DNA from: Cyclobacteriaceae bacterium
Lineage (GTDB): Bacteria > Bacteroidota > Bacteroidia > Cytophagales > Cyclobacteriaceae
Length of the DNA: 64,000 bases
Direction: 5' to 3'
NCBI GenBank assembly: GCA_020832375.1
Contig: JAFIEW010000004.1
Location: 1 to 64,000 of the forward strand
Under the pieces are notes generated by a model. It was not told the DNA's origin. It made no database searches and saw only the letters and a list, made by a program, of their open reading frames with translations. Positions 2,755 through 53,768 of this stretch are shown in pieces; within the stretch, counting starts at the first letter, position 1; every line of letters starts with the position of its first letter. A program made the position numbers and the translations under genes.

Positions 2755-5542
2755 ATGAGCAAAGATCCCTATAAGATTAAACAAACCCTCCAGTCGGGTG
2801 ATAAACAATTAGATTATTATTCACTCAAAAGGCTTAGTGAAAATCATCCTGAAGTAGAGAAGCTCCCTTTTTCTATCAGAATTCTTTTAGAAAATGCACT
2901 CCGTAATTTTGATGACTTTGCCATTACCAAGGAGCATATACAAACGCTCTTGAATTGGAAACCTGAAGCATCGGAAAAAGATATTCCCTATAAGCCGGCT
3001 CGGGTGCTGATGCAAGACTTTACTGGGGTACCTGCCGTAGTAGACATCGCTTCTTTGCGTGCAGAAGTAGCGCGAAAAGGAAAAAAAAGCAGATAAAATT
3101 AACCCCCTCATCCCAGTAGACTTAGTAGTAGATCATTCTGTACAGGTAGATTACTTCGGAACCAAAGACGCCTACAAACTCAATGTAGATGAAGAATATA
3201 ACCGTAATGGCGAGCGCTATCAGCTGCTCAAGTGGGCACAAAAGGGATTCGACAATTTCTCTGTTGTTCCTCCAGGCATGGGTATCTGCCACCAGGTTAA
3301 TCTGGAGTACCTCGCACAAGGCGTGATAGAAAGAGATGGCTTGGCATTTCCCGATACCCTCGTGGGTACCGATAGCCATACACCCATGGTCAATGGTATA
3401 GGCGTAGTCGGTTGGGGCGTAGGAGGTATAGAAGCAGAGGCCGCACTACTTGGGCAGCCGATTTACTTCATCATGCCGCAAGTGGTTGGACTCAAGCTTA
3501 CAGGTAAGCTCCCTCTAGCAACCACAGCTACCGACCTAGTACTCACTATCACTCAGTTGCTCAGAAAGCATGGCGTAGTAGGTAAATTTGTAGAGGTCTA
3601 CGGACCAGGATTAGATCACCTCACCATTCCCGATCGCGCCACCATCTCCAATATGTCGCCAGAGTTCGGCTGTACAGTCACCTACTTCCCCATCGATGAT
3701 CAGACACTCGACTATATGGAGCGAACCAACCGCTCAGCAGAGCAGATCAAATTGGTAGAAGACTATTGCAAATCAAACCTTCTATGGAGGGAAAATGAAG
3801 AAAAAATTAATTATTCCGAAAATCTAGAGTTAGATTTATCCACCGTTCAAGCCACAGTAGCTGGACCAAAGCGACCACAAGATAAAATCGCCGTGGCAGA
3901 CTTCAAGCCTACTTTCGAAAAACTTATCCACAGTGAGTTTGGTCGCGATTATCTAGCCCTCGATCAAAGAGAAAGCACCCGATGGTCGGGAGAGGGAGGG
4001 GGCGGCACTGCTTTCGTGCATCCAGAAAACGATGATTTGCCTATGGATGTAGAAATCGAAAAGCATCCAGAAAATAAATTCCGCTCCGTAGATGTAAAAA
4101 TTAAGCATGAGGAGTTCACCCTCTCCGATGGATCAGTGGTGATTGGTGCCATCACTTCTTGTACCAATACCTCCAACCCATCGGTGATGATCGGTGCGGG
4201 CCTCGTAGCAAAAAAAGCAAGAGCACTCGGTATTGACGTGAAGCCTTGGGTGAAAACCAGTTTGGCTCCTGGCTCTAAAGTGGTAACCGACTATTTGAAA
4301 TCAGCGGGTCTCCTAGAAGATCTTGAAGCACTGCGCTTTCATCTCGTAGGCTATGGCTGTACCTCCTGTATCGGAAATAGCGGGCCACTGCCTCCACACA
4401 TCGCTAAGGCGGTAGAAGAAAACGACCTCATTGTGGCATCTGTGCTCTCTGGAAATCGAAATTTTGAGGCGCGAGTCCATCCACAAGTGAAGATGAACTT
4501 CCTCATGTCACCACCTTTGGTAGTAATTTACTCCATAGCCGGTAGGGTAGATATTGACCTTGCCAATGAACCCATTGCCTATGACCCTAATATGAGGCCG
4601 GTATATTTCAAAGATATTTGGCCAGAACAAGAAGAAATCATGGAGGTGATGCAAAAAGTACTTACTCCAGATGACTATAAGAAAAATTATGGTGAAATCT
4701 TCGATGGTAATGAGCAGTGGAAAGCCTTGGATGCTCCCCAGTCTTTACTCTACGATTGGGATGAGCAATCGACCTATATCAAAGAAGCTCCTTTCTTCGA
4801 AAATATCTCCGAGGACGCCCCAGCACCAGAAGATGTGAAAGATGCACATGTACTCTTAAAACTTGGAGATAGCATTACTACTGACCACATTTCACCCGCA
4901 GGAGCCTTTGCAGAAAACTCTGCAGCCGGAATGTACCTCAAAGAAATGGGGATAGAAAAAGCTGACTTCAACTCTTATGGCTCGCGCAGAGGTAATCATG
5001 AAGTGATGATGCGCGGTACTTTCGCCAATGTACGCATCAAAAACCAGTTGGCAGAAAAAGAGGGCGGCTATACCAAGCACATTCCATCAGGAGAGGAGAT
5101 GAGCGTATATGAGGCCGCTCAAAAATATAAAGAAAATAGCACAACCCTTGTAGTACTTGGTGGTAAAGAGTATGGTAGCGGTTCTTCTCGCGACTGGGCC
5201 GCCAAAGGTACTAGCCTCTTGGGTGTGAAGGCTGTAATTGCTGAAAGCTATGAGCGTATTCACCGTTCTAATTTGGTAGGGATGGGTGTGATGCCATTAC
5301 AGTATAGCGAAGGTGAAAATGCCGAATCGCTAGGACTCGACGGTACAGAGACCTTTAGCATCACGGGTATTGCGGATGGACTGAAGCCATTGAAGAACTT
5401 AAAAGTAGTGGCTAAAAAGTCCGACGGTAAAGAAATCGAGTTTGAAGTCGTGGCCCGATTAGATTCTGCTATTGAAATTGAGTATTATAAAAATCAAGGG
5501 ATCTTACAATACGTCTTAAGACAGTTTTTGAAAGAGGCTTGA
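2755..5542 (+). pseudogene. acnA: Aconitate hydratase A with a frameshift
   Basis: The reading frame from ATG 2755 encodes the aconitase N-terminus (about 111 residues, through SLRAEVARKGK) and then hits TAA just past an A8 run at 3081-3088. If one A is skipped, translation continues in frame 2 from 3089 (ADKINPLIPVDLVVDHSVQ) without interruption to 5542. The result is a protein of about 928 residues, the normal size of bacterial AcnA. The [4Fe-4S] cysteines are visible in SCTNTSNPS (near residue 468) and GCTSCIGNSG (near residue 534). The C-terminal swivel domain has GSGSSRDWAAKG. The enzyme interconverts citrate and isocitrate in the TCA cycle, one step before the isocitrate dehydrogenase encoded at 15.3 kb. 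The lesion could be a sequencing or assembly error, a true loss, or slippage at A8. The rest of the gene looks fully maintained. Confidence 0.93.
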
Positions 5543-5570: not shown

Positions 5571-5638
5571 CCGCAAAGTTGCGAAGTAGACAAGGCTTGT
5601 TAAAAGTCGATGTTTGCTCGATAGCTTTGCGGTTTTTT
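5571..5638 (+). terminator. Stem-loop and T-tract after aconitase, also a degenerate first unit of the 72-bp array
   Basis: CCGCAAAG (5571-5578) pairs with CTTTGCGG (5625-5632), followed by TTTTTT. The outer arms match the ends of the downstream repeat units, so this terminator and the array look evolutionarily related. Confidence 0.6.
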
Positions 5639-5642
5639 ATTC

Positions 5643-6440
5643 CACCGCAGAGACGCAGAATTCGCAGAGGGTTTTAATCTCAGCCTCCTTAGCGCCTTGG
5701 CGGTTTTTTTATTTCACCGCAGAGACGCAGAGATCGCAGAGAGTTCTAGTCTTAGCGTCCTTTGCGCCTTTGCGGTTTTTTTATTCCACCGAAGAGACGC
5801 AGAGCTCGCAAAGGATTCTAGTCTTTGCGTCCTTAGCGCCTTTGCGGTTTTTTTATTTCACCGCAGAGACGCAGAATTCGCAGAGGGATTCAAATCTTTG
5901 CGTCCTTTGTGCCTTTGCGGTTTTTTTATTTCACCGCAGAGACACAGAATTCGCAGAGGGATTCAAATCTTTGCGTCCTTAGCGCCTTGGCGGTTTTTTT
6001 ATCTCACCTCAGAGACGAAGAGATCGCAGAGGGTTTTAATCTCAGCCTCCTAAGCGCCTTTGCGGTTTTTTTATTCCACCGAAGAGACGCAGAGCTCGCA
6101 AAGGATTCTATTCTTAGCGCTCTTCGCGCCTTTACGGTTTTTTGTCTCACCACAGAGACGCGTAGATCGCAGAGAAATTCTAGTCTTAGCGTCCTTCACG
6201 CCTTTGCGGCTTTTTATTTCACCGCAGAGACGCAGAGATCGCAGAGAAATTCTAGTCTTAGCGTCCTTCACGCCTTGGCGGCTATTTATTGTTTTACCGC
6301 TGAGACGCAGAGTTCACAAAGGGATTCTATTCTTAGCGCTCTTCGCGCCTTTGCGGTTTTTTTATTCCATCGCAGAGACGCAGAGTTCGCAGAGGGTTTT
6401 ATCTTGGCGTCCTTGGCGATTTTGAAGTAGTCTTTCGTTT
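5643..6440 (+). repeat. Tandem array of eleven ~72-bp hairpin repeats
   Basis: Units begin (CACCGC or variants) at 5643, 5715, 5787, 5859, 5932, 6005, 6077, 6148, 6220, 6295 and 6368, so the period is 71-75 bp and mostly 72. Each has a left arm CCGCAGAGACGCAGAG..CGCAGAGG, a variable middle (for example GATTCTAGTCTTA), and a right arm GCGTCCTTAGCGCC then TTTGCGG followed by T6-T7. The arms are imperfect reverse complements, giving a long hairpin with a T-tract. Because 72 is a multiple of three, the array has spurious long ORFs in all three plus frames (low-complexity FHRRDAEFAE-like translations); these are not called as genes. Confidence 0.9.
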
Positions 6441-6969: not shown

Positions 6970-7032
6970 AGCTCTTTTTGAAAAAAACGAAGACTTAAAA
7001 CTCTTGGTTGATATTTGTACTAATCTTTTCTA

Positions 7033-7312
7033 GCAGTGCTAAGACGCAGAGATCGCAAAGGGATTCCAATCTTAGCGTCCTTTGCGGCTTTTTATTTCAC
7101 CGCAGAGACGCAGAGATCGCAGAGAAATTCTAGTCTTAGCGTCCTTTGCGCCTTTGCGGTTTTTTAATCTCACCGCAGAGACGCAGAGATCGCAGAGGGA
7201 TTCAAATCTTAGCGTCCTTAGCGCCTTTGCGGTTTTTTATTTCACCGCAGAGACGCAGAGTTCGCAGAGGGTTCTATTCTTAGCACCCTTCACGCTTTTA
7301 CGGAATATCTAT
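7033..7312 (+). repeat. Second tandem array of 72-bp hairpin repeats (about four units)
   Basis: A left-truncated unit begins near 7033 (GCTAAGACGCAGAGATCGC). Full units start at 7098, 7171 and 7243, in the same orientation and with the same arms as the 5.6-6.4 kb array. The last unit decays at its right end (CACGCTTTTACGG without a T-tract). Confidence 0.88.
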
Positions 7313-14060: not shown

Positions 14061-14430
14061 TTATGCATATCCGCATAATTACATCAATGGATACAGGCCT
14101 TGAACCCGGAATATGCATTAGATTTTCTATTCCGAGCTAAAAATACTTCATAATCAAACGCTTCGCTGCATTTAACGCCTTCACCATAGCGGTGCTATGC
14201 CTTAGTCGTTAAATACTTGATTTTCTTGTATTTTTAGCTCTCATAACGAACCCTAACACATAATCCGGGTTGAAAAGACACAACTTGTTATGTTGTGACG
14301 ATCTTTCAGGGCTAGTTTCTATTTCTCCCAGGGCTTCCCTCTGTACTTTGTTTTAGAGCGCCTTCAGCGCTATAAAGCCATAATACTTCCTTTGAAAATT
14401 AAGGAGCATACAAGCGGATAAGTATAAAAA
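14061..14430. repeat. Repeat family C (host element) interrupted by a family B element
   Basis: The outer ends are inverted: TTATGCATATCCGC at 14061 and GCGGATAAGTATAA near 14416. Between them are ACATCAAT, CAGGGCTTC, GCGCCTTCAGCGC and ACTTCCTTTGAAA, all shared in the same order with 53561-53768. The 165-bp family B element at 14105-14269 interrupts it. Without that insert the copy is about 200 bp, like the 53.6-kb copy. Confidence 0.7.
14105..14269. mobile_element. 165-bp inverted-repeat (MITE-like) element, family B copy 1, with TTGAA duplication
   Basis: Ends CCCGGAATATGCATTAG and TAACACATAATCCGGG are imperfect inverted repeats. Internal inverted pairs (GAGCTAAAAATAC with GTATTTTTAGCTC; TTTAACG with CGTTAAA) allow the whole element to fold. 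TTGAA occurs once on each side (14100-14104 and 14270-14274), a candidate 5-bp target duplication. There is no ORF. Confidence 0.72.
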
Positions 14431-18486: not shown

Positions 18487-18651
18487 ACCCTTAATATACA
18501 TTGGAATTTCTATTCCGAGCTAAAATACTTCAAAATCAAACGCTTCGCTGGATTTAACGCCTTCACTAGAGCGGTGCTATGCCTTAGTCGTTAAATACTT
18601 GACTTTCTTGTGTTTTTAGGTCTCATAACGAACCCTAACGCATAATCCGGG
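18487..18651. mobile_element. 165-bp family B inverted-repeat element, copy 2
   Basis: It has the same length and internal order as 14105-14269: TTTCTATTCCGAGCTAAAA, AATCAAACGCTTCGCTG, then GCGGTGCTATGCCTTAG, TAACGAACCCTAAC and the end ATAATCCGGG. The left terminus is more diverged (CCCTTAATATACATT), and no clear target duplication is seen. Confidence 0.68.
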
Positions 18652-53560: not shown

Positions 53561-53768
53561 TTATGCTTATCCTCATAACTACATCAATAGATATTTGCAT
53601 TGAAAAGAAACAGCTTGATACTTTGATCCGCCCTTTCAAGGCTCAGTCATACTGTCTATTTCTCACAGGGCTTCACCCTGTGCTTTGCTTTATAGCGCCT
53701 TCAGCGCTTTTAAAACACAGTACTTCCTTTGAAATTTAAGATGCAAACAAGCGGTTATGCATATAATT
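53561..53768. repeat. Repeat family C, uninterrupted copy
   Basis: TTATGCTTATCC at the left and GCGGTTATGCATATAA at the right are inverted. Between them lie ACATCAAT, ATTGAAAAGAAACAG, CAGGGCTTCACCCTG, TAGCGCCTTCAGCGC and ACTTCCTTTGAAA, as in 14061-14430. At the position of the family B insert there is a single TTGAA. Confidence 0.68.

Follow-up and report, generated by a model that had tools for sequence, protein, structure and literature searches.

A MITE with IS1380-type ends, nested in a second repeat of a Cyclobacteriaceae genome, as a landing site for a putative IS110-related element

A short segment of DNA that lies inside a longer repeat, with the same five bases on either side, raises the questions of whether it moved there and what moved it. 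Such a segment, element B, is found at positions 14105–14269 of the window, a stretch of 64,000 nucleotides from a Cyclobacteriaceae bacterium (features are on the + strand unless stated otherwise). It is 165 bp long and, as read from the sequence, is flanked by TTGAA on the left (14100–14104) and on the right (14270–14274), the whole site reading GGCC-TTGAA-[165 bp]-TTGAA-AAGACACAACTTG. The repeat that it interrupts, family C, is recognizable on both sides: the left part (14061–14104) has 82% identity to C positions 1–44 and the right part (14270–14429) has 76% identity to C positions 40–206. An uninterrupted C copy in the same window (53561–53766) reads GCATTGAAAAGAAACAGCTTG, with a single TTGAA, the empty site, at 53600–53604. 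The initial annotation had concluded from this pair that B moved; as a correction to it, the interrupted C copy ends at 14429.

The genome holds about 40 copies of C, and a BLAST comparison of C with its genomic copies found the insertion point uninterrupted in 41, among them 53561–53766, with the exact TTGAA in 28. None of the 41 has an insert there, and B occurs in the interrupted window copy alone; the nesting of B in C, with its empty site, is therefore real, and the proposed movement of B into C is upheld. One rival view, already named in the initial annotation as its counter-case, is that B belonged to C from the start and was lost from other C copies; another is that the nesting arose by recombination. 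Nothing beyond the shared location favors either; an ancestral B was sought in the 41 other C copies and was absent, the 28 intact sites each hold one TTGAA, and some 40 B copies lie elsewhere, outside C, with duplications of their own. This alternative is refuted; the segment at 14105–14269 is a nonautonomous transposable element inserted in a copy of C.

The ends of B are CCCGGAWTATGCRTTAG, and B-type ends are also written CCCGGAWTATGC. They form terminal inverted repeats of 17 bp, the left one, CCCGGAATATGCATTAG, at 14105–14121 matching the IS1380 ends of relatives and the right one reading CCCGGATTATGTGTTAG on the − strand at 14253–14269. A search of the bacterium's own genome (4.1 Mb in 215 contigs) identified at least 40 copies with 84–100% identity, the window copy scoring 167.7 bits with covariance model R1. 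Exact 5-bp duplications flank 20 of the 38 full-length copies, nearly all of the form TTNAA (TTAAA 9, TTTAA 5, TTCAA 3, TTGAA 2, TTAAG 1), whereas randomly re-paired flanks gave a mean of 6.2 exact duplications and a maximum of 12. In G069, a relative with a complete one-contig chromosome, a perfect TTNAA duplication surrounds all 19 of the B-type copies read. As the variable middle base is identical on both sides, the duplication is one of 5 bp and not the 4-bp TTAA of piggyBac (PMC10813416). The 5-bp duplication originally proposed from a single site is therefore borne out by many more copies, and the claim that B has no transposase gene holds as well, its longest stop-free run being 30 codons and too short for a gene. 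The second copy reported at 18487–18651 is real too (covariance-model match at 18488–18651, 136.2 bits), but its left end is decayed and its flanks, TTCGA and TGTCA, form no target duplication. Short, multi-copy, bounded by terminal inverted repeats, without a transposase gene and flanked by target duplications, B is a MITE.

In two genomes, the genes on either side of a copy are tandem in 28 cases, convergent in 14 and divergent in 2, a distribution that is suggestive of an avoidance of shared promoters, with a background sample that is too small; no large open frame was found broken by a copy. The window gave no Rfam matches.

Family C is itself a MITE, with ends TATGCWTATCCGC and 8-bp AT-rich duplications. 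The uninterrupted window copy carries the duplication TAATTTAT, and the 8-bp duplications are exact in 14 of 28 copies and agree at 7 or more of the 8 bases in 19 of 28, compared with 1.4 expected by chance. Other repeats occupy the same landscape. Element E (positions 3106–3405 of locus L126), with ends GGGCTTGCTTAAAAAG and TTTTTAAGCAAACCC, lies within a B copy; its tail resembles window repeats at 813–853 and 2488–2528, and contigs C126 and C76 hold C copies with E-like sequence inside them. The window also contains an array of ~72-bp repeats, CACCGCAGAGACGCAGAGATCGCAGAG...TCTTAGCGTCCTT, at 5597–6430 and 7026–7309, as well as a Por secretion tail, which fits a member of the Bacteroidota.

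Which transposase could move B? The best explanation is mobilization in trans by an IS1380-family transposase, to which, as the most likely agent, we assign a probability of about 0.8. Among 59 relatives, 6 have transposases of this family (model NF033539), as do two additional, selected genomes, and 7 of 15 IS1380 loci carry a B-type end within 300 bp of the gene (at most 3 mismatches); the end pattern read backwards, as a control, matches once per 386 kb at the same stringency. Four of these loci (L171, L173, L177 and L214) have B-type ends on both sides of the gene, and three have one on the 3' side (L182 and L183 with 1 mismatch each, L218 with 2). The transposase of L182 stops 9 bp before CCCGGATTATGCATTGGAATA, the ends of L177 and L171 are of the CCCAGAATTGTCATTAG type, and L214 combines a complete 442-aa gene with the ends CCCAGATTGTTTATTAG and CCCAGATTGTCCATTAG and the flanks TTTAA and TTAAA. 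The ends of B differ from the IS1380 ends of relatives by 1–3 mismatches, and the TTNAA-like flanks are similar. Three other IS1380 elements (L172, L216 and L217) are without B-type ends, which limits the link to one IS1380 subgroup; B is a MITE with the ends of that subgroup. IS1247, an IS1380-family element, makes 5-bp duplications (PMC3281130); at the IS1380 copies identified here, the flanks are mostly 4-of-5 matches and not exact.

Within the bacterial family, 54 of the 148 genomes have B-type ends, the reversed pattern being almost without matches, and most genomes with such ends have no IS1380 match. The highest count, 423 end matches in one 7.1-Mb genome (G019), occurs beside broken IS1380 genes. 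The initial annotation had called for an insertion sequence with matching ends: one exists, of the IS1380 family, in related genomes, but neither NF033539 nor PF13701 detected an IS1380 gene in the present 215-contig draft, an assembly from which a multi-copy insertion sequence could be missing. The same two models found no IS1380 gene in G069, which is complete and in which the 19 copies have a recent look, and the ~1.05 Mb of this genome's contigs that were read contain no full-length IS110 or IS1380 gene. The shared ends and the 5-bp duplication speak for an origin of B from IS1380, but no parent element was detected in the same genome. As neither genome has an IS1380 match, we infer the mechanism from ends and target: an IS1380-family transposase supplied in trans would recognize the CCCGGAWTATGCRTTAG terminal repeats, excise B and integrate it at TTNAA with duplication of 5 bp. 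The enzyme would have come from an element since lost or absent from the draft assembly.

The case for a different, non-IS1380 transposase that shares these ends and this target by descent or convergence is G069 itself, whose one complete contig holds 19 or more B-type copies, all with perfect duplications, and no IS1380 match. Yet the other terminal-repeat matches read in that genome are further MITEs or unpaired ends, with no repeat-bounded element carrying a gene, and matching ends do occur at seven IS1380 loci of other genera, which makes such an enzyme unlikely. Far less probable is that B is a Tn3-type miniature element (TIME). Tn3-derived TIMEs also make 5-bp AT-rich duplications, but their ends are ~40 bp long (PMC4133298) compared with ~17 bp in B, whose target is TTNAA rather than AT-rich sequence in general and whose ends match IS1380 elements.

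The arms of B are 58 nt long and 72% complementary; the fold has a z-score of −9.0, and none of 200 shuffles folded equally well. At the center lies a hairpin, CATAGCGGTGCTATG (14185–14199), that is conserved between genera and corresponds to helix 10, in which 94.7% of cells are paired. In other genera, the elements bounded by B-type ends are mostly 162–169 bp long, some 181–218 bp, and fold over their whole length. An alignment of 19 copies from 13 genomes had a mean column identity of 59%; automatic consensus folding returned 13 pairs only, whereas on a structure taken from a single member 81.3% of cells are paired, compared with 30–41% in slid controls. Double changes occur at 25 of 55 hairpin pairs, a number reached in none of 500 shuffles, and they extend beyond the terminal repeats, with 13 in the inner helices 5, 8 and 9. 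The reference structure comes from one of the aligned sequences and related copies inflate the counts, so that these controls serve for orientation and do not amount to a p-value. By covariance model, 41 of the 148 genomes from the family contain the element, as do 32 of the 84 genera (about 40% of the sampled genera), with copies per genome as lower bounds because 9–19 candidates were scored in each. In an even sample of the phylum, the element was confined to the same family except for one weak 70-bp match.

The hairpin is kept by compensating changes across genera, which suggests either that B needs its folded form to transpose or that the arms are matched to each other by arm-to-arm repair. 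Quasi-palindrome correction and gene conversion act on long inverted repeats, and the arms of B are precisely of this sequence type; the copies also have no strand preference relative to tandem neighbors (11 same, 17 opposite). Paired changes created by repair, and not by selection on function, are on these grounds a serious contender, although at somewhat less than even odds: the 5' side carries an unpaired bulge of ~10–12 nt (GCTTYGCTG) that is similar in many genomes, and full correction would tend to erase such bulges.

Some B copies are ~380 bp long, the extra 214 bp forming element D, of which this genome contains 18 copies or parts (L129–L146). The junctions lie at CCCGG/AWTATGC (the slash marks the junction) in all 15 left and all 11 right cases, with GG on both sides. 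Left junctions read TTNAA-like sequence followed by CNCGG/ATTCTA; at right junctions, TTAGATGG/A leads into the remainder of the B end, and the B repeat concerned may be the left or the right one. The same left junction recurs in G019, a genome of another genus, in the two copies L151 and L160. The single fixed junction point, with GG on both sides, establishes that D entered existing B copies, and the terminal repeat of B is thus the precise landing site of D. Two other arrangements were considered and rejected because D sits at this one position inside either B end: that D is a deletion product of B's own insertion sequence (it starts CCCGGATTCT and ends in a reading frame, ...LNAALKIS and a stop), and that B flips inside longer elements. 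One D copy (L138; contig C181, 28575–28752) starts as B's own end, CCCGGATTATGC, and not as D's; gene conversion or an assembly chimera is possible.

A relationship of D to IS110 is suggested by a 35-bp match, with 91% identity, between the noncoding part of D and sequence upstream of a DEDD_Tnp_IS110 gene in genome G003. IS110 elements choose their targets by means of a guide RNA, and REP repeats are known among these targets (PMC11187229, PMC11208160, PMC1525189). D contains both halves of its target (TATGCAT and CCCGGA) 28 nt apart, an arrangement seen in 2 of 20000 shuffles; the search was post hoc and the order of the halves is the reverse of that reported for IS110 guide segments (PMC11187229, PMC11208160), and a guide RNA in D is not claimed. 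Several contigs break near D positions 154–178, which would fit a longer version of the element; none, full-length or otherwise longer, occurs in the ~1.05 Mb of contigs read. A more novel reading strikes us as doubtful: B-type elements would constitute a family-wide, structurally constrained repeat with a fold that functions in transposition or for the host, and their ends would be the dedicated target to which an IS110-type element is guided by RNA, one mobile element thus living on the ends of another.

Known parents of MITEs include IS982 (PMC9769881), IS5 (PMC4596501) and Tn3 (PMC4133298). A literature search, mostly without subscription papers and hence weak evidence of novelty, retrieved no description of a MITE that has IS1380-type ends, and IS1380 goes unmentioned in a review of prokaryotic MITEs from 2024. 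If the proposed mobilization is true, one bacterial family contains a widespread nonautonomous partner of IS1380 transposases. The hairpin, near-constant in length and kept by double changes in 32 genera, goes beyond a decaying deletion product and makes selection on MITE interiors testable; its wide distribution, its constant fold and its use as a landing site together place B above an ordinary MITE. The D insertions offer a clean natural case in which the terminal repeat of one mobile element is the address of another, comparable to IS621 at REP sequences.

How does this pair compare with known systems? B resembles IS1380-family elements (IS1247, ISEcp1, ISPme1) in its ends, which in relatives' copies read CCC-RGAWT-...-CATTAG, and in its 5-bp AT-rich target duplication; unlike them, it has no transposase, and apart from the ends no part of B was seen in an IS1380 element. 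ISEcp1 and ISPme1 mobilize neighboring DNA by a one-ended process (PMC9330008), of which B gave no sign. MITECca01 of Cardinium is likewise short, high-copy, mostly intergenic and from the Bacteroidota (PMC9769881), but it derives from IS982, measures ~240 bp and is found in one lineage with its parent present, whereas B-type elements occur in 32 genera, mostly without a parent. BrickBuilt and the other MITEs of Porphyromonas gingivalis (PMC4596501), also from the Bacteroidota and intergenic, can form long stem-loops as well, but are distinguished by IS5-type ends, internal 23-nt repeats and irregular duplications. The REP sequences targeted by IS621, ISPpu9, ISPpu10 and ISPa11 parallel B as high-copy palindromic repeats that serve as precise targets of IS110-type elements (PMC1525189, PMC11208160, PMC11187229); here, with no full-length IS110 gene in the part of the genome read, the target differs from REP in being the terminal repeat of another mobile element.
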